Assembly (NCBI GenBank): GCA_026214975.1
Contig: CM047809.1
Location: 28,245,977-28,309,976, forward strand
Direction: 5' to 3'
Length of the DNA: 64,000 nucleotides
DNA from: Gentiana macrophylla
Lineage: Eukaryota > Streptophyta > Magnoliopsida > Gentianales > Gentianaceae
In this document: positions 3,391 to 63,224 of the stretch, one piece after another
How positions within the stretch are numbered: position 1 is the stretch's first letter
Layout: each line of letters begins with the position of its first letter
Notes under the pieces: generated by a model
Database searches by the model: none
The model's input: only the letters and a program-made list of their open reading frames with translations
What the model was told of the DNA's origin: nothing
Made by a program: the position numbers and the translations under genes

Positions 3391-3910
3391 ATCTATATCT
3401 ATTACTCGTGTGATCATGAATCTATGTTCGAGAAATATGAAAAAGAAGGGATTTTTAGTGGGGAGATTGGGTCATTGAGATTGGAGATTCTATGGAATGG
3501 GTTCTTAACAAAAGTACAAAAAGGACAAGACAAATGGCAACCAGAAAGGGAATTTATCATTTCATTATCCAACAGTAAACATATAATAGTTCATCTGCAT
3601 TATTTGTTGTGTAAAGAATAGTATAGAAAATGTGACGACGACAAGAAATTGGACATTTCATGGTCACCGATAAGAATTTTGTCGGTAATATGATAAAGAA
3701 AGAAGCTTTTAAAGCCTGTGACGAGAGGAGGATTCACAAGTGATATGCATAGCAGTTTAAATCAGGCGCCGCTTTCTTGAAATGACAAAGAAGAAGACGA
3801 AAGCACAAAGAGGGGGGGAGGGGGGGTAGTTGAAGAAGAGGAATTACAGCAAGAATTTGGGTTGAGCATTTATGTGGCTCATTAAGCCATGTAGCCTTAT
3901 AAACAGGAGT

Positions 3911-5610: not shown

Positions 5611-5890
5611 CATGTATAAGAAGTTAGGAAGTAAACAATCTAAAATAATATGAAAGTCAATAGTTTTGTTTTGGTTTGGCTTTCAGGAATCTTATACTTT
5701 TTTTTTAGCCTGAAGTATATGGGAATTTCCGGTTTGATTCTAGTTGGTAATGTATAGTGAAGTTAGACGTAAACAAGTCAAAATAATATGAAAACACACT
5801 TCAAAAAATTTATGAAAATAAATAGTTTCGGTATGGTTCGGGTTGGTCATGTATAGTGAAGTTAGGAAGTAAACAAATCAAAATAATACG
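5611..5890. repeat. Short repeats of a 45-bp unit
   Basis: A unit of the form CATGTATAGTGAAGTTAGGAA followed by GTAAACAAATCAAAATAATA recurs at about 5611, 5749 and 5848, and again at about 7906 and 8010 in the downstream duplicate. The spacing is near 100-135 bp, so this looks like an old tandem array shared by both duplicate blocks. Confidence 0.6.
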
Positions 5891-7239
5891 GAGTATCTAA
5901 ACAAATGGTTTTGGGTTGGTCTGATTTTCAAGAATCTCATAGTTTTTTTAGTGTCCAAAACTATATGAGAACATTTGGTTTGGGTCAAGTTTGTTCGCTA
6001 TCTCATTGTTTTCTTTAGTATCCAAAACTATACGAGAATATATACGTATAAGTATTTTAATGCAATACAAATAGTTTGTATATTAAATATTTAACAAAAC
6101 ATATATGGAATAATGATGTCGCGCATGTAAGTCGCTTATACTAGTAAGAGTACTAGGTCAATCGTAGTATAGCGATTAGCGAAGGCGAATCAAGGTCAAT
6201 CACACAGAGACAATGCAACATTGATAATAAATGTACTAATCTAATTAAGAACACATAGAGTGTTCTACGACCAACGTAAAGACAAAAAAGAAATTGGTAT
6301 TCCCCTCCTAACCTATCTCCTAGCTTGGTATAATTAATCGTTATGTTTACTTTCCCCGTAATTCCCCGAGTCAATCAAAACATATGCTTTAATTCACTTT
6401 TAGCTACGGGTGTGATTTCCTAACCTTGTTTACTCCATTTGTAAGGACAGTAAACGTCTATGTGCAGTTAACCTCCTTCATTGGTTGTATTAACCCACAT
6501 GCAATAAGTTCTAGAAAGTGTCGTCTCAAGACCGAGAACCTCCCTAGGCATCGACAATGACTAGCACGTTCCTAAAGATTGATCCAGACGATGTCCAAAC
6601 TAACACTTCACTAATAGTCCTTCATGTTAATTTACGAATACGAAAAGTAGATTGGATAGATCTAATCTATCGTTAATCAAACATGTCGATCAACGTAGTT
6701 GACGCTGAATCTCCAGATTTAGGGTGACCTAAAAGTTGCCTCGCAATTGCGATATAGACCATCGCAATTGCAAGCGAGGCGGTTCCTAATTTTGGAATTT
6801 CATATTACTGTTCTGATTAATTCTGGTAAATTACGGATGCGTTAAACATGCATATTAATAAAATTGCGTAGAAAAAAATAATCTACCATGGTAAAAATAT
6901 GAAGAAACGTTCAAAGCTTCATAGATTTGATTATGGCGGATCTAGCTTGATCAATTCAAGCTAGTTGATGGCTTGGGGAAGGAAACCAATGGAAAAACTC
7001 AAAAGCAAAACCCAAGAACTTTTATTTCATATAAATCTTAACAAGAGCTGTAAGTATATGTTACAATGACTGCTACAGGCTTTTTATAAGCACTGTAAAC
7101 CGACTTAAACAACCTAAACCCTAGCCAACTTATGCATAACACGGAAGCTCTATTTCTTGCTTCCCAAGTACTTGCTATTGCGGCTGGGCCTCTGCAATTG
7201 CAGGCCTAACTTCACCTTCTCTGTTATCAGTAGATCTCT
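5672..7239. repeat. Duplicated 1.57-kb block, copy A
   Basis: The segment is closely repeated at 7829-9382 in direct orientation. Similarity starts at GGTTTGG(C/T)TTTCAGGAATC and ends at GTTATCAGTAGATCTCT in both. It holds about 440 bp of unassigned DNA followed by a gypsy-type LTR. Because flanking DNA is duplicated along with the LTR, this looks like a local segmental duplication rather than two independent insertions. Confidence 0.8.
6114..7229 (-). mobile_element. Gypsy LTR without internal region (copy A)
   Basis: It runs from TGATGTCGCG to ...CTGTTATCA and shows the same order of motifs as the LTRs of D and F: an 'actaggtcaatcgtagtatagc' block, a 'gatc/tcacacagagac' block, and a block with 'ccgacttaaac..ccctagcc'. 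A TATA box lies on the minus strand at 7081-7088 (TATAAAAA). No PPT follows the right end and no PBS precedes the left end, so it behaves like a solo LTR or an LTR fragment. Palindromic GCAATTGC units occur at 6741-6773 and 7172-7203. Confidence 0.65.
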
Positions 7240-7828: not shown

Positions 7829-9382
7829 GGTTTGGTTTTCAGGAATCTCATAGAATTTTTTAGTGCCAAAAATATATGGGAATTTCCGGTTTGGTTCTGG
7901 TTGGTCATGTATAGTGAAGTTAGAAAGTAAACAAATCAAAATAATATGAAAACACACTTCAAAAAAAATTATGATAACAAATGGTTTCGGTTTTGGTTCG
8001 GGTTGGTCATGTATAGTGAAGTTAGGAAATAAACAAATCGAAATAATACGGAGTATCTAAACAAATGGTTTGGGGTTGGTCTGATTTTCAAGAATCTCAT
8101 AGTTTTTTTAGGGTTCAAAACTATATGAGAACATTTGGTTTGGCTCAAGTTTTTCCGCTATCTCATTGTTTTCTTTAGTATCCAAAGCTATACGAGAACG
8201 TACCCGTCTAAGTATTTTAACGCAATACAAATAGTTTGTATATTAAATATTTAACAAAACATATATAGAATAATGACGTTACGCACGTTAGTCGCTTATA
8301 TTGGCAAGAGTACTAGGTCAATCGTAGTATAGCTAAAACGAATCAAGGTGGATCCCACGGAGACAATGCAACATTGATAATAAACGTACTAATCTAATTA
8401 AGAACACATAAAGTGGTCTACGACCAATGTAAAGACAAAAAAGAAATTGGTATTCCTCCTCTTAACCTCTCCAACTTGGTATAATTAATCGTTATGTTTA
8501 CTTTCCCCCGTAATTCCCCGAGTCAATCAGAACTTATGTTTTAAGTCAGTTTTAGCTACGGGTGGAATTCTTTAACCTTGTTTACTTCCATTTGTAAGGA
8601 TAGTAAACGCCTATGTGCAGTTAACCTCCTTCGTTTGTTGTATTAACCCACTCACAATAAGTTCTAGAAAGTGTTGTCTCAAGACTGAGAACCTCCCTAG
8701 GTAGCCATCGACAATGACTAGCACATTCCTAAAGATTGATCCAGACTATGTCCAAACTATCACTTCACTAATAGTCCTTCATATTAATTTAAGAATACAA
8801 AATGAGATTGGCCAGATCTAGCCTATCGTTATTTAAACATGTCGATCAACGTAGCTGACGCTGAATCTCCAGATTTAGGGTGACATAAAAGTTGCCTTGC
8901 AATTGCGATATAGACCGTTGCAATTGCGAGCACGGCGGTTCCTAATTCTGGAATTTCATATTACTGTTATGTTTAATTTTGGTAAATTACGGGTGCGTTA
9001 AATATGCATATTAATTACATCGCATAGAGAAAGCTAATCTACCATAGTAAAAATACGAAGGAACGTTCAAAACTTAATACCTTTGATTATTGCGGATATA
9101 GCTTGATCAACTCAAGCTAGTTGATGCCTTGGGGAAGGAAATCAATGGAAAAACTCAAAAGCATAACCCAACAACTTTTATTAACAAGAGTTGGAAGTAT
9201 ATGTTACAATGACTGCTACAGGATTTTTATAGGCAATGTAAAACGACTTAAACAACCTAAACCCTAGCCGACTTATGCATAACACGGAAGCTCGATTTCT
9301 TGTTGCCCAAGTACTTGCTATTGCGGCTGGGCCTCCACAATTGCGGGCCTAACTTAAGCTTCTCTGTTATCAGTAGATCTCT
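7829..9382. repeat. Duplicated 1.57-kb block, copy B
   Basis: Second copy of the block at 5672-7239. It differs by scattered substitutions and small indels, and has two rather than three copies of the 45-bp unit. Its gypsy LTR portion runs 8274-9372. The following 9383-9598 shows no recognisable feature. Confidence 0.8.
8274..9372 (-). mobile_element. Gypsy LTR without internal region (copy B)
   Basis: Counterpart of the LTR in copy A, from TGACGTTACG to CTGTTATCA. A minus-strand TATA box is at 9224-9231. The palindromic units corresponding to those of copy A are at 8897-8929 (spacing 21 bp) and, weakly, at about 9315-9346. It lacks PBS and PPT, as copy A does. Confidence 0.6.
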
Positions 9383-14622: not shown

Positions 14623-15771
14623 TGACGGACCTTTTCTAGGCTATACAGATCCTAACCGGCAGTGTACCGGGTCAAATTGTAGCTCTAGTCTGGTGAGTCA
14701 GGTCGTATTCCTCAGGGAAAACATGGTAATTCTTTTAAGTGGGGTTAAACACCAAGAAGCTATTATTAACTCGATCTAAGTCGCAGGTTTATCATTTTCC
14801 TCGGGTTAGATTATGTTAGTAGTTAGATGTTAGAGTTAGATGTTAGTAAAACAGTAAATAAAACAAATAAATACTAATATAATATATATTTTTGGATCTA
14901 GCCAAGAATACGTTACTGAATCAATATATCTTTTTAGTTAATAAATGAGACAGATCTTTTCCTTGCTGCAAGGAGGTCAATTATAAATGAACCGGTGTAC
15001 TCCTAAGCTAGACAACTCCTCCTCACACGAGCGTATGAAATTGTCATATGTCCATTGCATCAGTCCAAGGTCCACAACTGTTACGGTTTTTCTGAACAGG
15101 TCCCGAGTACAAATCTACCTTTAGATAAAAAGGAGTCATTCCGTTCGTCAAACGGTCAATTTTATTTAAAAGGCTCCGGTTGTCAAAGCCGGACGATTCA
15201 ACTTTCGGTTTAAGTTTCAATTAAGCAGATGATTTAACATTATTACGATTTGAGTACAAATGTCAATAAAATTTGTTTTTCTAGGACAAATCGTCCCGGG
15301 TAGAAAGCGGGTTCCGTTGTCACGCTTTCACTCGGCCAATTTTACCTCCGGTCTTTCAATTTTAACGTTTCATTAGGCGCAGTAAAGAAAGAGATTCATC
15401 ATAATTGATTTTAATCATTATTACGAGTCGATCATTCATTTTACCAAAAGATTAACTAATTTGATTCATATCTTGGCTAGATATATTTTTAGTTTAATAT
15501 CATATATAAATAGAAATAGAAATAATAAACATAACAATTTTAGAATATATTACCGGTTATGACTATCGAATCGGGGTCGTTTCCACCGGATCTAACATGC
15601 CAAAGCTTCGAAATCAACAATCTTCGATAATTATTCCGCCATTACAACGATACTATAACCATTTTATTTATATATGTGAAAAACATATATACATACATAC
15701 ATGGACATATATATGTATATACGGGCCCCGAAAAGAAAATTAAAAGAGAAACGAGATGAAAAGATCTAGAT

Positions 15772-15895
15772 CTAGATCTATATATATATAGATAGATCTA
15801 TCACATAGATATTCATATATAGAATATATATATATACATGAAGGGTGTGTATATATATATATATATATATCATACATGTATATATATATATGATC
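15772..15895. repeat. AT/AGATCT microsatellite in J LTR
   Basis: Alternating AT runs and AGATCT repeats; the same tract in the right LTR is at about 22384-22513. Short frames through it encode only Ile/Tyr repeats. Confidence 0.85.
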
Positions 15896-15987
15896 ATCAA
15901 AACAAAAAATAAAAAAGAAAGAGCAGGGGACGAGAGAAGAAAGAAATGGGAAAGAAAGGGGCAAAGCTTTTCATCCCTCTTGGTGTG

Positions 15988-15995
15988 CTTATATA
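15988..15995 (-). promoter_or_regulatory. TATA box of J LTR (left copy)
   Basis: The minus strand reads CTATATAAG over 15988-15996. The equivalent in the right (5') LTR is at 22610-22617. It lies just downstream, in element orientation, of the GGATCGATCC palindrome array. Confidence 0.6.
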
Positions 15996-16008
15996 GATAA
16001 AAATGGGG

Positions 16009-16142
16009 CGGATCGATCCGGGAAAGGGCGGATCGATCCGGGAATAAAATATATTATCCCAAGCCTATCCCCATGTGCGAAATCATCATTATGGCGATTT
16101 TTGTTTCGCGGATCGATCCGGGAAAAGGCCGGATCGATCCGG
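16009..16142. promoter_or_regulatory. Palindrome array, J left LTR (CCGGATCGATCCGG type)
   Basis: Two pairs of a 13-14 bp palindrome at 16009, 16029, 16109 and 16129. Within each pair the start-to-start spacing is 20 bp here and 21 bp in the other LTR. They sit immediately upstream of the TATA box in element orientation. Confidence 0.75.
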
Positions 16143-16676
16143 GAGCTCGCCGATTTTGAGCTGAAACTTGAAAAATTCATATCTTGAGTTGTAGACCTCC
16201 GATTGACGTGATTCAAAATGCGTTGGAAAGCTTTTTCAAAGATCTACAACTTTCATGAAGGACTCTTCTTCAGAAAATGCCTTTTGATGGACCATTTGTT
16301 CGTCGAAGATATAATTCGATAATAACATTACGAAACGTTGATCCACTTGAACTTTTAAGCTTGTGGCACATTCTTACACCCTTCAAAAGATATGTTTTAA
16401 CTTCAAAAAGTGTCGTCACTCGGGGTTTTGGTTTATTATAAATCTGCAATAAAAATACCACAAATACCCGTGTAAATCTGACACGACACTCCGGTTACTA
16501 AACCGGTACAAAACTTATAAAAACTTATAAAAATACGATAATTTATATAATAACTACTACTTATACATTTGAATAAAACTTAGTAATTTTGACTTGATTT
16601 GATATAATAATGCTCAAAATGGTATCGTAAATGGGGCGAAATGTCATAAAAGCGATCATAAATTTATCTCTCATCA

Positions 16677-21240: not shown

Positions 21241-23302
21241 TGACGGACCTTTTCTAGACTATACAGATCCTAACCGGCAGTGTACCGGGTCAAATTGTAG
21301 CTCTAGTCTGGTGAGTCAGGTTGTATTCCTCAGGGAAAACATGGTAATTCTTTTAAGTGGGGTTAAACACCAAGAAGCTATTATTAACTCAATCTAAGTC
21401 GCAGGTTTATCATTTTCCTCGGGTTAGATTATGTTAGTAGTTAGATGTTAGAGTTAGATGTTAGTAAAACAGTAAATAAAACAAATAAATACTAATATAA
21501 TATATATTTTTGGATCTAGCCAAGAATACGTTACTGAATCAATATATCTTTTTAGTTAATAAATGAGACAGATCTTTTCCTTGCTGCAAGGAGGTCAATT
21601 ATAAATGAACCGGTGTACTCCTAAGCTAGACAACTCCTCCTCACACGAGCGTATGAAATTGTCATATGTCCATTGCATCAGTCCAAGGTCCACAACTGTT
21701 ACGGTTTTTCTGAACAGGTCCCGAGTACAAATCTACCTTTAGATAAAAAGGAGTCATTCCGTTCGTCAAACGGTCAATTTTATTTAAAAGGCTCCGGTTG
21801 TCAAAGCCGGACGATTCAACTTTCCGGTTTAAGTTTCAATTAAACTGATGATTTAACATTATTACGATCTCGAGTACAAATGTCAATAAAATTTGTTTTT
21901 CTAGGACAAATCTGTCCCCGGGTAGGAAACTGGGTTCCGTTGTCACGTTTTCACTCGGCCAATTTTACCCTCCGGTCTTTCAATTTTAACGTTTCATTAG
22001 GCGCAGAAAGAAAGAGATTCATCATAATTGATTTTAATCATTATTACCAGAGTCGATCATTCATTTTACCAAAAGATTAACTAATTTGATTCATATCTTG
22101 GCTAGATATATTTTTAGTTTAATATCATATATAAATAGAAATAGAAATAATAAACATAACAATTTTAGAATATATTACGGTTATGACTATCGAATCGGGT
22201 CGTTTCACACGGATCTAACATGCCAAAGCTTCGAAATCAACAATCTTCGATAATTATTCCGCCATTACAACGATACTATAACCATTTTATTTATATATGT
22301 GAAAAACATATATACATACATACATGGACATATATATGTATATACGGGCCCCGAAAAGAAAATTAAAAGAGAAACGAGATGAAAAGATCTAGATCTAGAT
22401 CTATATATATATAGATAGATCTATCACATATATATTCATATATAGAATATATATATATACATGAAGGGTGTGTATATATATATATATATATCATACATGT
22501 ATATATATATATGATCATCAAAACAAAAAAATAAAAAGAAAGAGCAGGGGGACGAGAGAAGAAAGAAATGGGAAAGAAAGGGGCAAAGCTTTTCATCCCT
22601 CTTGGTGTGCTTATATAGATAAAAATGGGGGCCGGATCGATCCGGGAAAGGGCCGGATCGATCCGGGAATAAAATATATTATCCCAAGCCTATCCCCATG
22701 TGCGAAATCATCATTATGGCGATTTTTTGTTTCGCCGGATCGATCCGGGAAAAGGCCGGATCGATCCGGGACTGCCAGTTTTGAGCTGAAACTTGAAAAA
22801 TTCATATCTTGAGTTGTAGACCTCCGATTGACGTGATTCAAAATGCGTTGGAAAGCTCTTTCAAAGATCTACAACTTTCATGAAGGACTCTTCTTCAGAA
22901 AATGCCTTTTTGATGGACCATTTGTTCGTCGAAGATATAATTCGATAATAACATTACGAAACGTTGATCCACTTGAACTTTTAAGCTTGTGGCACATTCT
23001 TACACCCTTCAAAAGATATGTTTTAACTTCAAAAAGTGTCGTCACTCGGGGTTTTGGTTTATTATAAATCTGCAATAAAAATACCACAAATACCCGTGTA
23101 AATCTGACACGACACTCCGGTTACTAAACCGGTACAAAACTTATAAAAACTTATAAAAATACGATAATTTATATAATAACTACTACTTATACATTTGAAT
23201 AAAACTTAGTAATTTTGACTTGATTTGATATAATAATGCTCAAAATGGTATCAGAAATGGGGCGAAATGTCATAAAAACGATCATAAATTTATCTCTCAT
23301 CA
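21241..23302 (-). repeat. 5' LTR of J (right copy)
   Basis: 2062 bp, near-identical to the left LTR. The TATA box is at 22610-22617. The four palindromes are complete 14-mers (CCGGATCGATCCGG) at 22632, 22653, 22735 and 22756, spaced exactly 21 bp within pairs. Confidence 0.92.
22632..22769. promoter_or_regulatory. Palindrome array, J right LTR
   Basis: Four perfect copies of CCGGATCGATCCGG as two pairs of 21-bp spacing, 15-160 bp upstream of the minus-strand TATA box. This is the best preserved J array. Confidence 0.8.
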
Positions 23303-23592: not shown

Positions 23593-24404
23593 TGATCGTG
23601 GTCAATCAGGTTATAATATACTTGTCCACCATAAACCAATACTAGCAAGAGGACTAGGCCCATCGTAGTATAGCTATAGTGAATCAAGGTCGATCCCACA
23701 GGGAACCAATTGTGGATCATCTTATATACAAACAATTAATTAAACATGTCAAGGACATAGAGGCGGTCTATGACCAACATAAAACAAGAAAGGTAAAGAC
23801 ACGACTCGACACAACGTAATTAACCTCCCCAATTATAGTCTTTATCGTTTGGACCTAGATAATTTATATAATAAACTGAACTTATTAACTGTCAATCCGT
23901 TTGTATCTATCTTAGATTGGCTACGGGAGTCATCCTCTTTAACTTGACTTAGCACCGGTTAGGTTGCTAGATCACTGTGCTACATTACGTGACTTCACCT
24001 TTTGGGTATCCATCTCATATAAATTGCACGCTTACGAGACTAAGGATGCCGATATTAATCGTACACCTCGTTTAGGCAACATTCCTATGGTTAGGCGTAC
24101 TTCCTAAGCGATTACTCAAGCTCTCGTCCAACTAGCAATTACCAAGTTATAGTCTCATGCTAATCTACGACGTACGTATAATCAGGTGCTAGCAATCCCC
24201 AAATATAAACTTACCTAGATAACACTGAACGTCCGTGAAGAGCAATTCATAAGCCTACCTAAGAGTTTTATATTGGTATTTCCTTTTTACACGTTTTAAT
24301 TAAACTAAGCGAGTAACGTAGCCATAGCCATACCTACTGAGATAATAAATTCAACTAGGTTAACCTAACCATAAAGACGTGGTGTAATTAACAGATGATA
24401 GGGG

Positions 24405-24462
24405 CTCGGTCGACCGAGTGAATTGGCTCGGTCGACCGAATGAACTTATTCGGTCACCCGAA
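24405..24462. promoter_or_regulatory. Palindrome triplet 1, D LTR
   Basis: Three 14-bp units start at 24405, 24427 and 24449, each exactly 22 bp from the last: CTCGGTCGACCGAG, CTCGGTCGACCGAA, TTCGGTCACCCGAA. The triplet lies about 430 bp downstream of the TATA box in element orientation, so it would be transcribed. Confidence 0.8.
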
Positions 24463-24978
24463 TCGATTTCATCCCCAGATTACATCTTAGAATATATCTC
24501 TCAGCGTTTCATCATACAGAACAGATTAAACAGTAATTCACACAGTATTCATATAAACTAACATAGATACGCATTAATTAAATCAAGTAGATTCATGAAT
24601 AAATACTAAGTGTATGACGTAAGTTATGGGATCCCCATAGACAAGGAGTCTCCACATCCCTATCGTCATAACCTAGATCTACATCATCTAGCTATGATTA
24701 ACTAATTCAAACGATAAAGCATAATTGGGAGGGATTAATTACTTAAAAGAAAAGAAACAGAAAATAAGGGCTTACATATTTGCAGCCTCCAAATTCTGAA
24801 AAACCTTCAAATTATTTATGCTACATTGTATCAAAGTTGTATTATGAATTATATGATGAATGATTCAAGGTATATTCTGCAAATTTCGTAGCGGCTGCTT
24901 ATATAGGAGTTTCTGCCGACTTATGAAGGATCTAGAAGGTAAATACGAAAAAATCCGATAACCGACCGAAAATCCCAA

Positions 24979-25036
24979 CTCCGTCAACCGAAGCTCCCCA
25001 CTCGGTCGACCGAAGCTATAGGCTCGGTCGACCGAA
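24979..25036. promoter_or_regulatory. Palindrome triplet 2, D LTR
   Basis: Units start at 24979 (CTCCGTCAACCGAA), 25001 and 25023 (both CTCGGTCGACCGAA), again at exactly 22-bp steps. They lie 75-140 bp upstream of the TATA box in element orientation, an enhancer-like position. Confidence 0.8.
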
Positions 25037-25392
25037 CCTAACTTTGCACATGTTAATCATTTTTCTCGTCTATCTTGCTCCCCACTGCATGCTTGCGTGT
25101 TGATCTGATTAATCTTTCATTTAATGCCCCGATTTTCTTCCTCTTTTATCTTGAGACCATTGATTGAATGACATTAATCCTCTCGATTTGTTGTGATCTG
25201 CAAAATAAACATTTATAGCACAATAAATCGGTCTTTTAATAATAAAAACAGCTAAATACCAAATATCATATTAATAATCACTTAACATTAAATAATAAAT
25301 ATAAACGAGTGATTCAATATGAAATATACATTATTAATCTCGATTTAAGGTCAACGTTGATGACTTTTACGGGTATAATTTGACCGTCATCA

Positions 25393-25406
25393 ACTACCCC
25401 CCACTT
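25393..25406 (-). other. Polypurine tract of D
   Basis: ACTACCCCCCACTT on plus, i.e. AAGTGGGGGGTAGT on the element strand, adjoining the 3' LTR. Confidence 0.85.
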
Positions 25407-28337: not shown

Positions 28338-29562
28338 TAAAACTCAACGAAAGCAGAAGATGGTTTTCTCTCAAAACTCAACGTCTTCTTTAGATTGTGA
28401 ATGCTTAAACTACACAATTTGTTGCTCCCCTGGCCAGTTGAAGCAATCTCATGCATAGGACAAAGAGATTTTAACAGAACTATGAGGAACTCTTTATTCA
28501 CTGCTTCTTTTCGGTAAAAACGTGTTTTAAATTTATAAACCGAAACACCCCAAGTATAAGGATCGTAGTATAGGATGTTTACGGGTCGTCCTAAGGGAGT
28601 GGAATGTTTATCGGATCAAGGAACAATTAGTCTAACGATTATGTCACAATTATCTATCTAAACTACTAAACTAAGGCTGAAACTAACTAAAACCTAAACC
28701 TAAGAATTAAAACTAAAACACGAATAAAAACAAGTGAAAAATAAGAAAAGCAGAAAGTTGCAGGCAGCGCTCACTTTGGTGAACAGCGCCCAAAACGAAT
28801 CTAACGGATTCATGTCGCTATTGCGGACGAGCGTCCAACTACGAACTGGAACAGAAAATTGCAGAAAAACAGCAGGAAACTAGGGTTTATAAAACTAAAA
28901 CTTAACTAAACTTAATCTAAACGATTCGATTAAAACAATTAAAGGAAAACACAGCGAGGCAACGAATCCACCCATCAACCAACAACCCCCAACTAGATGG
29001 TGATCTAAGATGTAGTTTTTAGTAGTGATTTATTCACGAATCCAATTAAATATCTTCAATCAAATTCTAGGGTTTAGTTTATCTTTTCAAATAAACTAAA
29101 CATGCAATCAACACGAAATCACGAGATTGTTTCCAAACTCTTGCTCAACTAAACATGCCTAATCTCTTATAACATGAATAATTGCATCACTTGAACGAAA
29201 TAAAACTTAAACCAATATACTTTCATACATAGATCCAAGCATATAGATATAGATAAATCGTTTCATCAAATCGTTAATTCCAACAAAACATGATCAATAC
29301 AAAACAGCATCCAAAGTGATGAAAAACTATAAATTAAACTCACTAACATAAAGCATCGAACTCTCTAGTTGGTTGTGTTGATGATGGGCTTCCTCCGTCG
29401 ACTCACTGCAAGGTTTCTAGCCAACAATCATGCTGGATATGATTGTTGGTTGGGAGATTTGCATCTCTGTGAAATTAGGGTTCTCTGGCCGCCGCTTTTT
29501 TGTGAATTTGCGATCTCAATGTTGCGTAAAAAAAGGTCTCCTTAGGGTTGGGGCTGCTGCTG

Positions 29563-29570
29563 TATTTATA
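29563..29570 (-). promoter_or_regulatory. TATA box of E LTR (left copy)
   Basis: TATAAATA on the minus strand; the equivalent in the 5' LTR is at 62005-62012. Confidence 0.6.
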
Positions 29571-29603
29571 GAGCTCTAAGTCGGTTATGACTAAGTCGGC
29601 AAC

Positions 29604-29757
29604 GGACGCTCGTCTGGTCTCGTGGACGCCCGTCCAGAATGCCTGGACGCTGAGTAAACGCGCGTTCATTCTCCGTCTGAACTCTCTGAATGTAAAATAC
29701 GATTCTGGACGCTCGTTCATCCTCCGTCTGGAATGGACGCTGCACGAACGCTCGTCC
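29604..29757. promoter_or_regulatory. GGACGNNCGTCC array, E left LTR
   Basis: Units start at 29604 (GGACGCTCGTCT), 29624 (GGACGCCCGTCC), 29645 (GGACGCTGAG), 29707 (GGACGCTCGTTC), 29735 and 29746 (GAACGCTCGTCC). The first three are spaced 20-21 bp. The array is 33-190 bp upstream of the TATA box in element orientation. The right LTR array (about 62043-62215) is more disrupted. Confidence 0.65.
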
Positions 29758-30096
29758 AAGATGCTGAGGGTCGGATTTCTTCATCTTTATCCAATTTCTT
29801 CAAGCCAATCCCAACTCTATCTCGAATAATTCGACTTGAGCTTCATTTATCCACTTATAGCACTCGAAGATTAACTCCTACATGATAAATAAACAATGCA
29901 AAAATGTAATAAAATCCAAATAATAATAATTCCATTAAATCAACACTTAAAATCATCAATTTTGCATACAACCCTCTTAAAATCATCTTTATTAAATAAT
30001 TACACTTAAACCCTTAATTCTCATGTAAATTATGCAAATGTGGGAAAAATAATAATGAAATACACCCTTAATAATCATATAAATATGGCCTTAACA

Positions 30097-32281: not shown

Positions 32282-33123
32282 CCCACCGATTGCGGTCAAG
32301 TTAAATTACTAACTCGATGCCTAAATAACCACTAGCAAGTGAACTAGGTTCAATCGCAGTATAGCTAGATAGAGTCGAGGTCGATCCCACAGAGAATCAA
32401 TTTGTGGATCCTAACTTAAATAGTCAACAGCTTATTTCGTTTGACAAATACGGTCTATGACCAACATAAAGTACGAGAAAAGAAAGACACACTCAAACAT
32501 ATAAATAACACATAAACAAATAACGTAATCAATCGCCTAATTATAACCGTGATCCTGCGGATCTAGACAATTTATATAACAAAGCAAGACTTATCAACTA
32601 TTAATCCGTCCATATTCATTTTATAGTGGCTACGGGAGTCATCCTCTTTTACTTGACTTAGCACCGGTTAGGTCACTAGATCCTGTGATGTTGTTACGTG
32701 ACTTCGCGCTTTTGGTGCCTCCATCTCATATAACTCACACGCTTATGACTCTAAGGATGCCGATATTAACCGTACACCTCGTCCAGGCAACATTCCTTTG
32801 GTTAGGCGTACTTCCTAGACGATCACTCAAACTCTCGTCCAACTAACAATTACCGAATTATAGTCTCATGCTAGTTTACGATCTACGTATAAGAAGGTGC
32901 GCGCAATTCCCTAATATAACCCTACCTAGATAACGCTGAAAGTCCGAAGATCAATTCATGAGCCTACCTAAGAGTTTTATACCGGTATTTCCTTTTTACA
33001 CGTTTTAATTAAATCAAGTGAGTGACGTAGCCATAGCCATACCTACTGAGATAACAGATTCAATTAAGCTAACCTAATCATAAAGACGTGACTGATTAAC
33101 GGATGAAAACAGGCTTGACAACT

Positions 33124-33181
33124 CTCGGTCGACCGAATAGGTGCTCTCGGTCGACCGAGTGACACCTCTCGGTCACCCGAG
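33124..33181. promoter_or_regulatory. Palindrome triplet, F left LTR
   Basis: 14-bp units at 33124 (CTCGGTCGACCGAA), 33146 (CTCGGTCGACCGAG) and 33168 (CTCGGTCACCCGAG), each 22 bp apart. This matches the position and order of triplet 1 in D. The right LTR copy is at 53972-54028. Confidence 0.8.
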
Positions 33182-33600
33182 AGTCTGACTCCCCAGATTT
33201 ACATCCCCGAACATATTTCTCAGCGTTTCATATACGAATCGGATTATATAGCGAATCATCAGGACATCATATAGACTAATCTAAATACACGTAAATTAAA
33301 CACACAGATTCATCCGTAGATGTTAGGTAGAGGACGTAGGGTTTGGGATCCTTATAGACAAGGTATCACCATTGCCCTAACGTCATATCCTAGATCTACA
33401 TCATCTAGATATGAATACTACTACCGGACAATCAAAGCATAATTGGGAAATTGATTACTTAAAAGAAAACAAGAAGATAAACTAGGGCTTACATGTTTGC
33501 ACCCTAGCAACCTCCGCAAACCTAAAGAATCCTTATTTGCTTATTTGTAAATATGAAATAGTATTGGTGAATGCATAATAAAAAATACAAAAGACTTGTG

Positions 33601-33608
33601 TTTATATA
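33601..33608 (-). promoter_or_regulatory. TATA box of F LTR (left copy)
   Basis: TATATAAA on the minus strand; the 5' LTR copy is at 54445-54452. Confidence 0.6.
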
Positions 33609-33706
33609 GAGCCTCAGCCGTCATAGAAAACCGACTTAAAATGCCAACACTCTGAACCCTAACCGACTCAAATAATGTGCCGAACTTCTTCTGGACTGTA
33701 GGCCCA

Positions 33707-33742
33707 CTCGGTCGACCGAATGCACAGGCTCGGTCGACCGAG
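33707..33742. promoter_or_regulatory. Palindrome pair, F left LTR
   Basis: CTCGGTCGACCGAA at 33707 and CTCGGTCGACCGAG at 33729, 22 bp apart and about 100 bp upstream of the TATA box in element orientation. The copies in the right LTR are at 54547 and 54571, where small insertions have changed the spacing to 24. Confidence 0.8.
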
Positions 33743-34046
33743 CCTTACATGCTCCTGGGCTCTTTCCTCTTTTCTGTCTTGGGCCTCCTGAACTTGTCTG
33801 TGATCCATCAAAGCTTTTCCGAAGTCCATCCTTGTGCTCCCAAATGAGTTACTACAAATATCACATAAAATACAGTCTGTAATATCAAATAATATAATAA
33901 AACCTCTCAATACATAATAATGAATCGTAACTCTCGACATATGTAAATTAAGCGTATTACGACTTATTATTATTCTATTATAGCTCCTTTAAACTAGAAT
34001 CGGGGATAAAGGTCATAGAATAACGGGCACAAAATGACCGTTATCA

Positions 34047-37506: not shown

Positions 37507-37524
37507 TCCCCGGCAACGGCGCCA
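37507..37524 (-). other. Primer-binding site of H (tRNA-Asp)
   Basis: TCCCCGGCAACGGCGCCA on plus, four bases from the LTR start at 37529. Confidence 0.85.
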
Positions 37525-37528: not shown

Positions 37529-39180
37529 TGTTGGGAGGATTTTGCATCATAAAAACAAAAGAAAATTTATAAACCTATACTTAACATGCAAACTAACTCC
37601 TAACCGACCAAATATCGGGTAGTTGATAGCATAGTAGTAAGGTAAATGCAGGTCGATCCACAGGGAAAGGGATGAAAGATCTAATCTCACTAATTCTCTC
37701 AATTGCTACTCAAGAAACGGAAGACAAAACGTAAAAGCAGAGAAAATAATTCAAATAATCTAACCTAAGGAATAAAATAAACAATCTAATCTAAAGACAT
37801 GGGATCAAATAATGTACAAACCTATGTGATCTCAATCCTAGTTCAATTTATGATTTTAATTCAAATTGTGGTTTCACCTTATCACGAGACATAAACCCCC
37901 AATTCCTTAGTGAATTTATTCTCAAGCTACGGATTCTAATTCCTTAGTAAATCCAATTTATCAATCTCTCATCTTCCGAATGTTGAGACTGATTTTCAAT
38001 ACAAAACTCGGTGTAGATTCAGGTTAACTCTCGTATTTTAGAATCTAACAACCTAGATAATTAATCGATTAATTTGTCATCATTAATGATTAAAAATCCT
38101 ATCTTTCTATGGTGATCTAGTCTACGCAACTTCCGTATGTTGTAAACGTATCAATAGCAAACTGATCTCTCGATCTAATTCACACAATAGCATCATGAAT
38201 CGAATAGAAAGATACAACATAAATTAAAGATCATGAAAATAAAAAGGATTGAATAAATTAAATAAATAAACTCACATAGTTTGGTACATGATTGAATCCA
38301 TGAATCGAAAACGGAAGAAAAACGACATCCTAATCTAACCCCGGATCACCCGAGCACAAGGCTCGGGTGACCGGCCTTGGGACTCCTCAAAACTGCCGCT
38401 GCTTTGCTGCTGTAATAATATGCGGCTGAATGTAAATTGTCTTTTTAGGGTTGTGATGCATGCATCTATTTATAGGAATAACTAAGTCGGCTGGAATAAT
38501 AAATTGCTAATGTCGGCTGGAATAATAAATTTAGGAATGAAACTTCTAAAATTCATATCTTGAGTTGTAGACCTCCAAAAATTATGATCCGAATGTCATA
38601 ATTAAGCCCTCGGGAAACTCTACAACTTTCATTAAGGACTCTTCTTCAGAAAACGCCTTTTTGATTAGCCCGTCGTATTACGAGTATATTTCGGGATTTT
38701 CCCCTAACCCAAATTGATTAGCCACTTGACCACCATTTGAGTTGTAGAAGTCCGATTGACGTAATTCAAAGTGCGTTGGAAAGCTCTTTCAACGATCTAC
38801 AATTTTCATGAAGAAGTCCTCCCCTGAAAATGCCTCTAAGCTGGGTCAAATCTCCGTCGAAAATATGTAACGATTTAAGTACTTAGGAAAATTTGCTCCG
38901 TTGAACTCGTAAACTTGTGGCATCTTCTTCTAACCCTCTAAACACCTCTTTTAGACCGAAGATATGCATCTACAAGATATCCAAAATATTGCAAAGTGTA
39001 ACAACATCCAAATAAACATAAAACCAACGATAAAAACACATAAATCAGCCACTTTTGCAATTTATTATCTTTAAAACTCATTTGCTCAATATTTCAATAT
39101 AAGGCTCGATTTCTATGATAAACATCCACATATAGGGGAAATTGATATAAAATATATCGTTAAAAACACTATAAATTTAC
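37529..39180 (-). repeat. 5' LTR of H
   Basis: It starts TGTTGGGAGGATTTTGC next to the PBS and has a minus-strand TATA box at 38467-38474 (TATAAATA). An inverted pair of palindrome-related units is at 38341-38375. The stretch around 38545-38660 and 38740-38830 resembles parts of the J LTR (TTGAGTTGTAGACCTCC; AAAGCTCTTTCAA.GATCTACAA). The right end is uncertain (39165-39190). Confidence 0.7.
38341..38375. promoter_or_regulatory. Inverted unit pair in H LTR
   Basis: CCGGATCACCCGAG at 38341 and its near reverse complement CTCGGGTGACCGG at 38362, 21 bp apart. Both relate to the asymmetric third unit of the D and F triplets. Confidence 0.6.
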
Positions 39181-40854: not shown

Positions 40855-40890
40855 CTCGGTCGACCGAGAGCAATCACTCGGTTGACCGAG
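40855..40890. promoter_or_regulatory. Palindrome pair in F interior
   Basis: CTCGGTCGACCGAG at 40855 and CTCGGTTGACCGAG at 40877, exactly 22 bp apart, just upstream (element orientation) of the transposon-protein-like ORF. Confidence 0.75.
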
Positions 40891-43145: not shown

Positions 43146-43181
43146 CTCGGTCGATCGAGAAGCATTGTTCGATCGACCGAA
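43146..43181. promoter_or_regulatory. Palindrome pair in F leader
   Basis: CTCGGTCGATCGAG at 43146 and TTCGATCGACCGAA at 43168, 22 bp apart, about 120 bp from the PBS in the transcribed leader. Confidence 0.75.
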
Positions 43182-43298: not shown

Positions 43299-43315
43299 TC
43301 CCGGCAACGGCGCCA
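43299..43315 (-). other. Primer-binding site of F (tRNA-Asp)
   Basis: TCCCGGCAACGGCGCCA on plus, six bases from the LTR start; one C fewer than in J and H. Confidence 0.85.
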
Positions 43316-43321: not shown

Positions 43322-43997
43322 TGATTGCGGTCAAGTTAAATTACTAACTCGATGCCTAAATAACCACTAGCAAGTGAACTAGGTTCAATCGCAAAGGTAT
43401 AGCTAGATAGAGTCGAGGTCGATCCCACAGAGAATCAATTTGTGGATCCTAACTTAAATAGTCAACCGGTTATTTCGTTTGACAAATACGGTACATGACC
43501 AACATAAAGTACGAGAAAAGAAAGACACACTCAAACATATAAATAACACATAAACAAATAACGTAATCAAGCGCCCAATTATAACCGTGATCCTGCGGAT
43601 CTAGACAATTTATATAATGACAAGACTTATCAACTATTAATCCGTCCATATTCATTTATAGTGGCTACGGGAGTCATCCTCTTTTACTTGACTTAGCACC
43701 GGTTAGGTCACTAGATCAACGTGATGTTGTTACGTGACTTCGCCTTTTGGTGCCTCCATCTCATATAACTCACACGCTTATGACTCTAAGGATGCCGATA
43801 TTAACCGTACACCTCGTCCAGGCAACATTCCTTTGGTTAGGCGTACTTCTGAACGATCACTCAAACTCTCGTCAACTAACAATTACCGAATTATAGTCTC
43901 ATGCTAGTTTACGATCTACATATAAGAAGGTGCGCGCAATTCCCTAATATAACCCTACCTAGATAATTTGAAAGTCCGAAGATCAATTCATGAGCCT
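43322..43997 (-). repeat. 5' LTR of F, first part (cut by G)
   Basis: It matches 32287-32962 of the left LTR and breaks at ATGAGCCT where copia G is inserted. The remainder is at 53811-54889. The two parts total about 1755 bp, as expected. Confidence 0.9.
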
Positions 43998-45832
43998 CAT
44001 TAGGTTTTATGCCCGAAAGACAATTTGTAATTGTTTTATTTAAATAAATGATGAGAATTTATTTCATCTTATTTATTCGCATTTATTGCCAATATATATA
44101 CACTACGTAAAACCCTAAGTATATTGATTATGTAATCACAACTCGGTGTATGGCTATACACACGAGGATTGAGTTTGTGAAATATACTTAAAATTAACTT
44201 AGTCCGTAGCGTTTATTAATCGGAGTACGGGTCTCTAGATTAATTTGCTATTAATGCGCCTGAACACTTTACGGTGTGACGATCTTATCCGGACTATCGG
44301 TAATAGAAAGTACTAGTGGGGCATTTATATATGATGATAATCATATAGAAATTTGGACCGATTTGATTTGAGTTCTCGATATAATTCCGTGATCGAGAAG
44401 TCTTATCGAATCACAAGATGATCATATATGGATTAATCAATCTCGAGGTGATCTGAGACAAACCGCTTAGACCAGGGTGGAGTTTGATGTGTTAGTAAGG
44501 ATCACCGCAGAATGTGGTCCAACACTTCGTTGGCTCTATTATCGGAATGAGTGAGTGGTACGTGTTATCACGAATATGGAATCCATTCTTCCCCTCGAAG
44601 TACATGACAGATTCACTTATTTGTTAACCCTAAAGCGATCGATGGGCCCGATTCATATTATATTGGTTATGAACTAATTGATCACTAGGGGTTAATGATA
44701 AATAAGGATAATATGTTTCGAGAAGGGTTTGCGGAAATATCCCGAATCGAAGTGAACAGTCTATGGAGGATTTATCCGTATGTAATGATTATATCAGTGG
44801 ACGATTTCGACTCATAAATTGAGTGTAAGTTATCTATATTCGATAGAGTTCAATTTCGGGTTTATGGTGGTGTAATCCGGAATTAATAGGTTGGATATAA
44901 TTATTACAATACGGCGAATAATTTTATCTAATTTATTGTAATTTCACGAATATGGTCCATGGTCCCCGACGTGGCTCCTAATATAGCATATAGGTTTCTC
45001 GTCGTTGCACCTCAATTATAATTAAATAGTGGATTGGGCTATTTAATTTGATATGTGGATTAATTGTTTAGTTGGACTAAATAATTAAATACACGGAAAA
45101 GACATTTTAAGTATGATTTACCGGCCAAATTGGTGTGTTGACCAAATTTTTGGTCAAATATAGAAAAAAGGTGCGTGACCTTATTTTTGAGAGAAAGGTG
45201 CGCATGAATTTTGTGATATTATTTAATTATTGGGAAATTAGTTTTCTTGGATAATTATTTAATGTGTGATTTATCTTTTATTTGTTAAATGATAATTCAT
45301 GGAATATTAGATAATAATATGATTTATCCTAATTTGTTTGGGATAATTATTTTATTTATCTTTTATTTGGAAAAAGGATTAATGTGATAATTATCTCTTA
45401 ATTATTTAATCCTTGGGGCTTAAGTTTTACTCTCCTATATAAAGAGAGTTCTCCCAAGCCTTTTGACAATCACTATTCACGTCACTATTCACAAGAGAAA
45501 TTGGCTGAAAATTTCGGCCTCTATTCTTAGGGTTCGAGTTGGAAAAATCTTCGGGATTTTTCCGGTAGCATATCAAGGAGGTCCGGCGGCGGGAAACACC
45601 ATCCACTTGGTGTTGCTGGGAGACACACGTTGGAAGACGGTGGCTGCTCAATCTCGTGTTCAAGGAGCTTTTTGTTCTTGGAGTTAAGCACCATAAAAAG
45701 GTAGGCTCCTAAACCCCCTTGTAGATTTAGATCTTTAATTTATGTTCTTTGTTTCGTTTAGATCTAGATCTTATGCCTTCCGCTGCGTAATCGGGTCAAT
45801 CCATGATTGATCCGACGATATTACATCTAACA
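43998..45832 (+). repeat. 5' LTR of G
   Basis: 1835 bp; ends ATCTAACA before the PBS. A TATA box (TATATAAA) is at 45436-45443. Confidence 0.92.
45436..45443 (+). promoter_or_regulatory. TATA box of G LTR
   Basis: TATATAAA in the context CTCCTATATAAAGAGAG; the 3' LTR copy is at 53419-53426. It would drive the G genomic transcript. Confidence 0.7.
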
Positions 45833-45834
45833 AG

Positions 45835-45846
45835 TGGTATCAGAGC
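45835..45846 (+). other. Primer-binding site of G (tRNA-iMet)
   Basis: TGGTATCAGAGC, the canonical copia PBS, two bases after the LTR. Confidence 0.92.
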
Positions 45847-47904
45847 CTTTGATCTAACGATCAAAGAATATGAGTTTTTGATCTAGGAGTGGAAAAACAT
45901 GTTTTAGGTGTTTTATTTCGTTTTTTTTGGTTAAATTCGAAATTTATTCATGTTGTATGCTTGTGAATGTTGTGGTTGAAGAGATGGATTGGGGTTGGTA
46001 TTGTTTACCCGTAGATCTATTTTGTAGCTCCTTTGTTTAGTAACAATTGAGCATAGGAATTGTATTTTTTTTTATGTCAATTTCGAAATTCAATGTAAAA
46101 GTAGCATCTTTTATTGTAATTTTGTTATTCCGGGCTCGAAAAGATGAAGATCTTGCTGAAAAGATGAAGATCGAGGCGAAACCCAAGGTATGAACGAGGA
46201 GAAAGCGGTTTAAATTTTTTTAAAAGCGCTACAGGACTTTCTGCGACGCTGAAAAGCGTCGCTATAAGTCCTGTTTATAAAATTGCATGCGGCTAGGGTA
46301 TAAAGCTTGCGGCTGTGTCACAAAAAAATTTTTTTTTTGTAACCTAATTTTTTTTATAAAAGGCTGCTGTATGGAAAAAATAAAAAATAAAAAAAATAAA
46401 AAAAAAAATAAAAAAAAAATTTCATTTTTCTGGGATTTTTTTTGTAACAGCCGAAAGAAAAATTAAAAAAAAAAAGTTTTTTTGGGCAGCCGCATGTAAT
46501 AACACAAAAAAAAAAAAATTTTTTTGATTAATTATAATAAATTGGTTTTATTTAATTAAAAAAGGCCTTTTTCTCTCGGGTGTTCGTGGTTCGTGATCCG
46601 CGGTTCGAGTTCAAGATTTGAAGATCAAGACTCGAAGACATAGATTAAGTTTTATTTTTCCTTAAAAAAAATAGTTAGTCGGGGGTACCAACGGTCCATC
46701 TCGGTGTTTACTTTTCGGTATAATTTTGTGTTTGATCAAGATTACGTGCTTAAAACCGGAAAATTGCCATGACTTGCATCTTCATGATTCCACTCCAATG
46801 CATACATGTAGCTAGTTTATTTCGAATAAATTAGGCATGTGTAACTCGAATAATTAGTATGAATGCTTATTAATTTAATATGTGGTAGTTAAATAATAAG
46901 TAGCTAATTATAAAAACCGAGGACCCGGGTTTATGTCAATCGTTTACGATTTTAGTGATGGATTCTCGGTGAATCCCACTTGGATAAATCGTTGAGCTTT
47001 TCGGTGATGGCTTCTCAGTGAACCCACCTTAAACTAAAACGAGATTACGCTTTGGGTGACAATTTAGAAATCGGAGAATCTTAGTACATGGGTTGGAAAT
47101 GGTCTAACCATGGTTGGGCGAGTTCAACCGAGCTTGGCTCAATCGACTCCCCACCACGTGATGATATGCGTTACAATGATTCGATAGGACTTAGCATAGC
47201 CGATAAGCCCGGGCTAAGCGGGGCTTCTCTCGCCGGATTGGCCTGAATCATCACATATGTTCCAACGAATAAGGCGGCGTAGGCTTGCCTACATAACCGA
47301 CCTATTCGGAGTACTTTGATTTATTGTTTCTTATTGTCAAGGCCAAAACCGTAATTAGTAAACCCACCACTTTTTCAAAATATTGAGTGGGAGCGGGAAG
47401 AAAGCGACAGCCAACCCCACGGCCTCTACTATAAATGCAAGCACGTGAGAGAAGGGTGACACCTCGAGCCGCTTTGATTCGGCCCCTGCGGGTGGTGTTC
47501 ACCCTATCAAAATTCAAGGCTTGGTTTCCGAAAGGATAGGATTTGGTACTCGTTGAGTCAACGACCGACCTGCGGCGGCACACTCGGGCGTACTTTGAGA
47601 TCTCGATATAGTAGGTCACACTCTTTATGGATATTTTGAAATATCTAGGCTAGAAAAGGAAGGTAAGCGAGTGATTAAGGTCCGGGATGTCGATTCCCGT
47701 GAGATGTTTGATTCTCGAAGATTAATCATGAGAGACATTGTCTCAGTTTAAATCGTCACCTCTTTGACTGACCCTGCGGCGGCACTGAGGTGTGAGATTA
47801 AATCCTTGGAATGGTAGGATAGACTTTATATAGTTTATTATTCCTAAAATAAAAATATAGTAGTGTATATTTGATTAAGTTTACTGTCATTTTATTTACG
47901 ACAA
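45847..47904 (+). other. Long leader of G
   Basis: About 2 kb separates the PBS from gag, long for a copia element. It contains the hairpin at 46231-46274, A/T-rich low-complexity DNA at about 46325-46530, the segment duplicated in inverted form in D (47003-47360), and a repeated CTGCGGCGGCAC motif (about 47569 and 47780). No protein frame is supported. Confidence 0.6.
46231..46274 (+). ncRNA. GNRA-capped hairpin in G leader
   Basis: A 9-bp perfect outer stem (ACAGGACTT with AAGTCCTGT), a symmetrical 3x3 internal loop, an 8-bp perfect inner stem (GCGACGCT with AGCGTCGC) and a GAAA tetraloop. The fold is read directly from the sequence. Its place between PBS and gag suggests a packaging, dimerisation or translation signal (inference). 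Confidence 0.6.
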
Positions 47905-51891: not shown

Positions 51892-51966
51892 AGCAAGTGG
51901 GAGTTGTATTCTTTGTAATATAGATATAGGGTGTGCTCTAAAACAATTAATCCACTTGCCTTTCGT

Positions 51967-51979
51967 GCAAGTGGGAGAT
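51967..51979 (+). other. Polypurine tract of G
   Basis: GCAAGTGGGAGAT precedes the 3' LTR. A second copy of GCAAGTGGGAG lies at about 51893-51903, just after the stop codon. Confidence 0.8.
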
Positions 51980-53805: not shown

Positions 53806-53810
53806 AGCCT

Positions 53811-54889
53811 ACCTAAGAGTTTTATACCGGTATTTCCTTTTTACACGTTTTAATTAAATCAAGTGAGTGGCGTAGCCATAGCCATACCTACCGAGATAAC
53901 AGATTCAATTAAGCTAACCTAATCATAAAGACGTGGATCGATTAACGGATGAAAACAAGCTTGACAACTCTCTCGTCGACCGAATAGGTGCTCTCGGTCG
54001 ATCGAGTGACACCTCTCGGTCACCCGAGAGTCCGACTCCAGCATTTACATCCCGAACATATTTCTCGGCGTTTCATATACGAATCGGATTATATAGCGAA
54101 TCATCAGGACATCATATAGACTAATCTAAATACACGTAAATTAAACACACAGATTCATCCGTAGATGTTAGGTAGAGGACGTAGGGTTTGGGATCCTTAT
54201 AGACAAGGTATCACCATTGCCCTAACGTCATATCCTAGATCTACATCATCTAGATATGAATACCTACTCAGACAATCAAAGCATAATTGGGAAATTGATT
54301 ACTTAAAAGAAAACAAGAAGATAAACTAGGGCTTACATGTTTGCACCCTAGCAACCTCCGCAAACCTAAAGAATCCTTATTTGCTTATTTGTAAATATGA
54401 AATAGTATTGGTGAATGCATAATAAAAAATACAAAAGACTTGTGTTTATATAGAGCCTCAGCCGTCATAGAAAACCGACTTAAAATGCCAACACTCTGAA
54501 CCCTAACCGACTCAAATAATGTGCCGAACTTCTTTCTGTAGGCCCACTCGGTCGACCGAAATGCCTGAGGCTCGGTCGACCGAGCCTTACATGCTCTGGG
54601 CTCTTTCCTCTTTTTTACATCTTGGGCCTCCGAACTTGTATCGTGATCCATCAAAGCTTTTCGAAGTCCATCCTTGTGCTCCCAAATGAGTTACTACAAA
54701 TATCACATAAAAATACGATCTGTAATATCAAATAATATAATAAAACCTCTCAATACATAATAATGAATCGTAACTCTCGACATATGTAAATTAAGCGTAT
54801 TACGACTTATTATTATTCTATTATAGCTCCTTTAAACTAGAATCGGGGATAAAGGTCATAGAATAACGGGCACAAAATGACCGTTATCA
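53811..54889 (-). repeat. 5' LTR of F, second part
   Basis: It matches 32963-34046 of the left LTR. It includes the palindrome triplet at 53972-54028, the TATA box at 54445-54452 and the palindrome pair at 54547-54584, and ends CCGTTATCA before the CCCAC duplication. Confidence 0.9.
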
Positions 54890-60948: not shown

Positions 60949-60954
60949 AAAACT

Positions 60955-62548: not shown

Positions 62549-63224
62549 TGACTTCTTTCAACGACTACATGTTTCCTACACACCTACAGATGAGATAGAT
62601 TTGGGGCGAGAACCTTCCACATTAATAGAATTAATCTTACAAACCACTCGGGCCAAGATTCATACTAAGGTTCATGTATAGGCTAACTTATGCTCAATAA
62701 AAAACCAAAAGGTAGTAAAACATAAGCAAAAAGGTAATACCTTGCCTTCAACATTGTACCACGAAGAATTTAAGCCTTTAAAATTTTTTCGAGCCATCTT
62801 TGTCTTTGTAAAGGTATTGCTTCCATCGCTTTTCCCATCTTAGATTCGTAGCTCCACATGTTTCTTTGGGTTATTTTCTCGGCGCCCGTGAAAAATTATT
62901 GACTTGGATTATTGCTTCCTGGTTTTACGCAAGCGGAAGAAAAACATAATGAGACCGTAGATCGATTTCAACATGGTTTCCCATGTCGCTATCAGACCTA
63001 CGGATTAAACATCTGAGGATAAACAAACACGCCGAAGTCCCGAAAATAGAACCAGGCTCATTTGGCGTAGAGGCGATCTCACCGGGAGCGAAACCGGTTG
63101 TTCAGATTCGGAATTTTTACCTGAGCGAGACAACGAGAGGACTCAAAAGCGTAAAAGCAGACTCTAAAGCGAAAACTTCGACATGAATAAAAAAATTATT
63201 TATATATAAAATTGACCGTTGGTT
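62549..63224 (-). other. Leader of D, non-coding
   Basis: About 670 bp between E and the D PBS. No recognisable gag frame or palindrome array. A 67-residue plus-strand frame (62983-63186) is antisense and unconvincing. Confidence 0.45.

Follow-up and report, generated by a model that had tools for sequence, protein, structure and literature searches.

Two-turn palindrome arrays in Ty3/gypsy LTR retrotransposons as putative promoter-proximal sites for a host protein dimer

We found that short palindromes, repeated at a step of about two helical turns, form small arrays in LTR retrotransposons of Gentiana macrophylla. This observation of phased palindromes was confirmed, and it proved larger than first reported. 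Judging from sequence, we give a probability of roughly 0.6 to the reading in which these arrays serve the LTR retrotransposons as promoter-proximal cis-regulatory modules, with units that are putative sites for a symmetric host dimer on one face of the DNA.

The window, that is, the whole stretch of 64,000 nucleotides analysed (G000:C5:28245977-28309976, in a genome of 1.79 Gb), is a nested stack of LTR retrotransposons, with a layout drawn from self-comparison and primer sites. A primer-site (PBS) core lies on the minus strand in F, D, C, E and K. The PBS TGGCGCCGTTGCC adjoins the 5′ LTR in F and D (cores at 43303 and 63227). We take it to be of the tRNA-Asp type, which fits Athila-like Ty3/gypsy for both; no reverse transcriptase (RT) was found in F, one of the two elements called Athila-like from the PBS. 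The elements are laid out as follows.

23593 to about 25392, minus strand: 3′ LTR of D (self-comparison, primer sites)
From about 63248 and past the window end, minus strand: 5′ LTR of D (self-comparison, primer sites)
28507-30094 and 60953-62546, minus strand: LTRs of E, inside D
About 32284-34046, minus strand: one LTR of F, inside E
About 43322-44010 plus 53803-54889: other LTR of F, with CCCAC at both outer sides
About 44000-53800: copia element, inserted in the F 5′ LTR
14623-16676 and 21241-23302, minus strand: LTRs of C
Primer-site core at 37512, minus strand: K, a further element within F

Elsewhere in the window we noted LTR-like direct repeats at 5673-7239 and 7829-9382 (89% identical, about 590 bp apart, a phased array in each), an imperfect G-rich tandem repeat of GTGTGGGTGGG type at 1475-1716, and a host-like RING-finger gene with an open frame of 329 aa at 2482-3471 (minus strand). 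Rfam gave nothing reaching gathering scores and NCBIfam no useful match. Scans of viral contigs for the core pair (three contigs), for sequences related to the reverse transcriptase of E and for sequences related to the gag of C brought out no related element. The arrays of the window are these.

24405..24462, minus strand: D, transcribed LTR; three units, step 22 bp, the third asymmetric, of GGGTGACC type
24957..25036, minus strand: D, U3; three units, step 22 bp, with an in-phase half-unit at 24957
33124..33181, minus strand: F 3′ LTR, transcribed part; three units, step 22 bp
33707..33742, minus strand: F 3′ LTR, U3; two units, step 22 bp, 98 bp upstream of the TATA box at 33608 (minus strand)
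40855..40890, minus strand: F, before the ORF; two units, step 22 bp, about 52-88 bp upstream of the ATG at 40803 (minus strand)
43146..43181, minus strand: F, leader; two units, step 22 bp, after the PBS at 43303-43315
53971..54028, minus strand: F 5′ LTR, transcribed part; three units (53971/53993/54015), step 22 bp, 53971 damaged
54547..54584, minus strand: F 5′ LTR, U3; two intact units, step 24 bp, 94 bp upstream of the TATA box at 54452 (minus strand)
16009..16141, minus strand: C 3′ LTR; two CGGATCGATCCG pairs, steps 20 and 21 bp, adjoining the TATA box at 15995 (minus strand)
22633..22768, minus strand: C 5′ LTR; two CGGATCGATCCG pairs, steps 21 and 21 bp, adjoining the TATA box at 22617 (minus strand)
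6720..6773, minus strand: LTR-like repeat A; TAGGGTGACCTA and two TCGCAATTGCGA-type palindromes, steps 21 and 21 bp
8876..8929, minus strand: LTR-like repeat B; diverged version of the A array, steps 21 and 21 bp
38341..38375, minus strand: K; inverted pair of GGGTGACC-type units, step 21 bp

All unit coordinates that the initial annotation had given for D and F hold. Its list lacked both arrays of the F 5′ LTR (53971..54028 and 54547..54584), and its claim that every undamaged step is exactly 22 bp fails at 54547/54571 in that LTR, a pair of intact units with a step of 24 bp. The four kinds of location that it had described are all present in F, read on the minus strand (U3 before TATA, transcribed LTR, leader, before the ORF); the leader of D (62546-63226) has no unit within five mismatches. 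F carries five units in its 3′ LTR and four internally. In D, the unit at 24449 differs from CTCGGTCGACCGAG by four mismatches, and the nearest unit of the U3 array lies 73 bp upstream of the TATA box at 24905 (minus strand). Exact copies of GGGTGACC numbered five in the window against 0.67 expected, all within arrays (D, both F LTRs, A and K). The asymmetric unit TCGG-GTGA-CCGA is thus a distinct type that recurs in phase. The palindromes CGG-TCGA-CCG and CGG-ATCGAT-CCG have the core CGG-CCG, and the A-type TCGCAATTGCGA is without it.

To compare these arrays with chance, we searched for CTCGGTCGACCGAG at up to three mismatches and found 18 matches in the window against 0.67 expected, with a maximum of three in 100 shuffles. 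A motif-free scan for near-identical 12-bp palindromes 13-120 bp apart, with 100 Markov shuffles as the control, gave 19 pairs against a shuffle mean of 0.09, and phased palindrome pairs were absent from the shuffles. Thirteen of these were nearest-neighbour steps, of 20 (1), 21 (5), 22 (6) and 24 bp (1); those from the paired LTRs of C or of F do not count as independent, being copies inside a single element. The remaining six, at 80-103 bp, lay between the two arrays of C. Three palindromes account for the nearest-neighbour steps, TCGGTCGACCGA in D and F, CGGATCGATCCG in C and TCGCAATTGCGA in A and B. With looser criteria 15 palindrome pairs came up, against 0.21, and two of these had a spacing of 26 bp. 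The motif-free scan gave no pair in the LTRs of E or the copia element, and a stricter one, for perfect 10-bp palindromes, gave none there or in A, B and K. The K pair was detected through motif similarity and did not come up in the motif-free scan.

The 22-bp spacing that had been described for the window held across most close pairs of the genome. Exact CTCGGTCGACCGAG sites numbered 11,744, and of 10,979 pairs of the 10-bp core with a gap of 0-30 bp, 10,370 (94.5%) were exactly 22 bp apart and 609 stood at other steps; these counts are lower bounds, and since copies were multiplied by transposition they are not independent events. Among the first 50 matches listed, tallied by eye, 48 pairs were at 22 bp, one at 23 and one at 24. 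At gaps of 31-60 bp there were 621 core pairs, and the 50 matches listed, also tallied by eye, had 44 at 44 bp, three at 45 and one each at 49, 62 and 66 bp. Reversed-pattern controls gave 0-1 pairs, and the single control palindrome run genome-wide, CGGACGTCCG, of equal composition, gave one pair (gap 0-30 bp), 21 bp apart. Pairs of CGGATCGATCCG with a gap of 0-30 bp numbered 6,545 genome-wide; the 50 matches listed, which like those of the core pairs come from one contig, C1, had steps of 21 (32), 20 (9), 22 (6) and 19 bp (3) with many linkers. The A-type TCGCAATTGCGA gave 14 exact close pairs, all 21 bp apart; as their linkers are nearly identical, they carry little independent weight.

Spacing was also not random in 20 loci fetched around the first matches, which were thus picked for holding the motif. 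Hence the outcomes that the initial annotation had named as refuting it, random spacing in other members and phased palindromes in shuffled sequence, did not appear here or in the shuffles. Here 82 of 95 steps between units (admitted at up to four mismatches) were 22 bp, five were 23 and four were 21, with 20, 27, 44 and 70 bp once each. When neighbours with two or fewer mismatches were excluded, the sequence 22 bp from a unit was still unit-like (up to five mismatches) in 28 of 170 cases, as against none of 298 at each of 29, 33 and 36 bp, none of 296 at 27 bp, one of 299 at 15 bp and nine of 299 at 18 bp, the last being probably register-shifted overlaps with a unit at 22 bp. Ten random 5-kb stretches, a small control of 50 kb, held no phased pair. 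Other palindromes in the 20 selected loci formed 14 pairs, eight at 21-23 bp and six at 27-114 bp; L017 holds six of the 14, as variants of the motif studied. We also noted in-phase palindromes at L016 373-679 and L021 9200-9284, of AAACGGGCGTTT type at 21 and 22 bp and of GGACGCCCGTCC type at 23 bp and also at 50 bp.

We next compared the LTRs of D and F (D aligned as 23593-25402, about 10 bp beyond the LTR end). Overall, 1176 of 1713 columns are identical. The palindromes agree in 65 of 70 columns, with all five differences at outermost bases, whereas the linkers agree in 9 of 24, free of gaps. Outside the arrays, full identity is seen in 139 of 1732 segments of 12 columns; the promoter stretch 33500-33900 has no such segment among its 415. 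The whole alignment has only 28 gap openings, so that the gap-free state of these few linkers is not significant alone. Pairs of linkers shared 27.8% identity on average, shuffled ones 24.1%, and 0.088 of the shuffles reached the observed value; the F 5′ LTR was excluded here as a copy of the 3′ LTR, leaving 15 of 20 units and 9 of 12 linkers. More weight for a kept linker length comes from the 92 steps that are joined by 48 distinct 8-bp linkers (up to strand), although these fall into one cluster under single linkage at five of eight identical bases and are not 48 independent sequences.

The same contrast was found in 12 oriented U3 segments. In the 40 most diverged of 66 comparisons, identity was 40-59% outside units, while inside them 22-28 of 27-28 positions were identical, or 35-39 of 41-42 where three units align; the units anchor these alignments, and the contrast is therefore somewhat overstated. 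Across 157 units (up to four mismatches), deviation was 1-6% in the arms, 5-17% at the central bases and 29-39% at the ends. Between F's own two LTRs, the units agree in 68 of 70 columns plus three gap columns, and the rest in 976 of 1010 plus 13. The units of F were thus kept no better than the rest after insertion, as expected of a copy that decays once inserted; selection, if any, would act on the active lineage.

The arrays hold recurrent places in the elements. In 15 of the 20 fetched loci (L008, L009, L012, L018 and L024 being left out), the last unit of 20 arrays ended 56-102 bp before TATA; in the window the distance was 73-98 bp for three arrays. Oriented maps show a U3 array upstream of TATATAA and then an array downstream of TATA in the LTR, and several loci, such as L013 and L014, have a further array after the primer site and one deeper inside. 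A simple upstream enhancer would not call for the arrays downstream of TATA. As a separate observation, L011, L021, L022, L023 and L025 share a recurrent ACGCG about 10-30 bp before the first U3 unit, with a GAGG stretch directly before it.

The carriers are not Ty1/copia Sireviruses, as their domain order is PR-RT-RNaseH-IN with Integrase_H2C2, and L009 has a chromodomain. Fragments of PR, RT and IN in Ty3/gypsy order were found in array-bearing loci such as L020, L023, L025 and L026; L010 and L016 had no pol match. Between the LTRs of L013, L014, L015 and L017 we detected, as in F, a PR fragment and Transposase_32-like pieces but no RT or integrase, which makes the F type, with its PR fragment, Transposase_32-like ORF and no detected RT, a recurrent non-autonomous type. 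Pieces of this ORF were detected in 5 of the 20 array-bearing loci (these four and L018), several loci being cut stretches. For the ORF behind the pre-ORF array of F, the Pfam matches to Transposase_32 (E 0.058 and 0.18) are far under the cut-off.

L009 is a chromovirus by its pol (RVT_1, E 6.7e-38) and a C-terminal chromodomain (Chromo, E 4.3e-05; 23.8 bits, slightly below the Pfam cut-off of 25.1 bits). It has two units per LTR, and the array and LTR layout of L008 resemble it. A comparison of its LTR against the window and 28 further loci gave 127 matches, of which 122 fell at the array region, for example in L023 (82.7% over 81 bp), L021 (84.5% over 71 bp) and D (82.6% over 69 bp). The other five were two of 138 bp at the LTR end (L013 and L015) and three short ones with E of at least 0.085. 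The sole TATA-like word behind its array is the weak TTTATAATA, 129 bp away. More palindromes, such as CATCCGTACGGATG, were seen downstream of this array at 1233-1420. The array is thus present in more than one Ty3/gypsy lineage.

How might such arrays act? Each unit would be bound by a symmetric protein dimer through its arms TCGG and CCGA, which flank a 4-bp centre. With two turns of the helix between them, adjacent dimers would face the same side of the DNA, where they could contact each other or a shared partner, and these contacts may raise transcription from the U3 TATA box. The further arrays, inside the transcribed LTR, in the leader and ahead of the ORF, would carry this control into the element, to a possible internal promoter. 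The initial annotation had read the units as a cooperative array of a dimeric protein, and the symmetry, the two-turn step, the variable linkers and the TATA proximity in diverged subfamilies fit that reading at the level of sequence; we infer dimer binding, cooperation on one face, activation and the host origin of the reader. A host transcription factor appears likelier as reader than an element protein, since the motif is common to different lineages, a grape Sirevirus included. For LOB-domain proteins, considered as candidate readers of CGG half-sites, our literature search gave nothing usable, and for this reason no factor is named. More tentatively, and with less confidence than in the regulatory reading itself, several LTR lineages (a grape Sirevirus and, here, Athila-like elements and a chromovirus) may each have recruited a conserved dimeric transcription factor of plants through a transferable, enhanceosome-like cassette of about 60-80 bp with a two-turn step, exchanged among retrotransposons.

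Alternatively, neighbouring palindromes could pair as hairpins in RNA or single-strand DNA, with a 14-bp stem and an 8-nt loop, and serve packaging, dimerisation or translation, or supply host small-RNA templates as proposed for maize Sireviruses. We consider this unlikely. The eight D and F arrays do fold, at −20 to −36 kcal/mol, and among 27 sampled 110-nt stretches of the window that fold below −40 kcal/mol, 25 overlap an array, the 12 lowest included. Because the units are symmetric, pairing does not separate the hairpin from the dimer-site model. In the F leader (43146-43181) the inner 12 bases of one unit can pair with those of the other, self-pairing having been lost by one base per unit; this is the sole such case among 92 pairs, with no further support for hairpin compensation. 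Cross-unit pairing has been preserved no better than the symmetry of single units (112 against 108 broken of 1104 inner positions), and 55 of the 92 pairs are not fully complementary. Nor does a loop need a two-turn centre-to-centre step, yet two palindromes of different length use about 21-22 bp, and the U3 array follows the position of TATA. In maize, palindromes of copia LTRs, clustered like ours in the LTR regulatory region, have been taken as secondary structure tied to small RNAs (as relayed in PMC10760457), which is a different reading from the dimer sites preferred here; being targeted by small RNAs would burden the element and give it no reason to keep the array.

The reader might also be encoded by the element, for example by the Transposase_32-like ORF, and have an activating or anti-silencing role like that of VANC in VANDALs, which are DNA transposons. 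We think this quite improbable. VANC21 binds a non-palindromic motif, YAGTATTAY, of its own transposon, and VANC targets, like the units here, are short motifs repeated in non-coding parts of a plant transposon, built up there through tandem repeat formation (PMC5735166). In favour of this reading, a single element has units at several non-coding places, one of them immediately ahead of the ORF. But pieces of this ORF were detected in only a quarter of the array-bearing loci and have weak Pfam support, the chromovirus L009 and gag-pol-bearing loci such as L025 have arrays with no detected copy of it, and a grape Sirevirus has an identical core. That the arrays are short tandem repeats born of slippage and spread along with the elements, with no function, is very unlikely and was already disfavoured. 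Tandem arrays are frequent in a plant Ty3/gypsy lineage (about half of the Retand elements studied), copy number tracks element copy number, and the A-type palindrome has only its 14 exact close pairs with near-identical linkers. Against this, linkers have diverged while units and linker length were kept between diverged subfamilies, and positions recur relative to TATA, PBS and ORF. The preferred reading remains that of promoter-proximal sites for a dimer, probably host-encoded.

Repeated symmetric boxes in U3 are known from other elements. In Tnt1 (Ty1/copia), repeated and partly symmetric U3 boxes control transcription, with sequences unlike those here, and we know of no two-turn phasing among them. 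Box I of Tnt1 is named symmetric in Bousios 2010 (PMC2829016). The same paper describes, for Ty1/copia Sireviruses, repeated palindromes called RM boxes, all but one with a CGG-CCG core, which cluster upstream of TATA within the LTR; elements with an ENV gene have them upstream of ENV as well. These boxes number at least eight copies per element, form CpG islands and are called Sirevirus-specific and absent from classic retrotransposons; the grape (Vitis) motif is CGGTCGACCG. The initial annotation knew of no description of such arrays, and this does not stand, as the RM boxes are of the same kind, CGGTCGACCG included as a core that occurs here too. The carriers differ, being Ty1/copia there and Ty3/gypsy here, and so does the fixed step, of which the parts of PMC2829016 covered report none. 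Arrays here are also small, mostly of two to four units, and stand in the leader and the transcribed LTR as well; further copies lie before an ORF with a weak Pfam match to Transposase_32. Each unit contains three CpGs. The CpG observed/expected ratio is 1.13 in the D and F LTRs, and also 1.15-1.25 in the array-less E and copia LTRs. A literature search recognised no Ty3/gypsy counterpart, and a string search for TCGGTCGACCGA returned no plant work, both judged mostly or wholly by titles and abstract openings, which is not proof of absence. What is new, then, relative to the covered parts of the Sirevirus work, is the Ty3/gypsy carriers, the two-turn phase and the sharing between lineages; the kind of motif had already been described in Sirevirus LTRs.

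The drivers of transcription of abundant plant retrotransposons are known for few families. The arrays offer a testable grammar, a two-arm palindrome with a two-turn step at a fixed place before TATA, in thousands of copies and across lineages, and a motif class described as Sirevirus-specific is now wider. The bound protein, once found, would be one regulator on which many families depend, and the defined sequence could be used for tracking when and where retrotransposon families wake.
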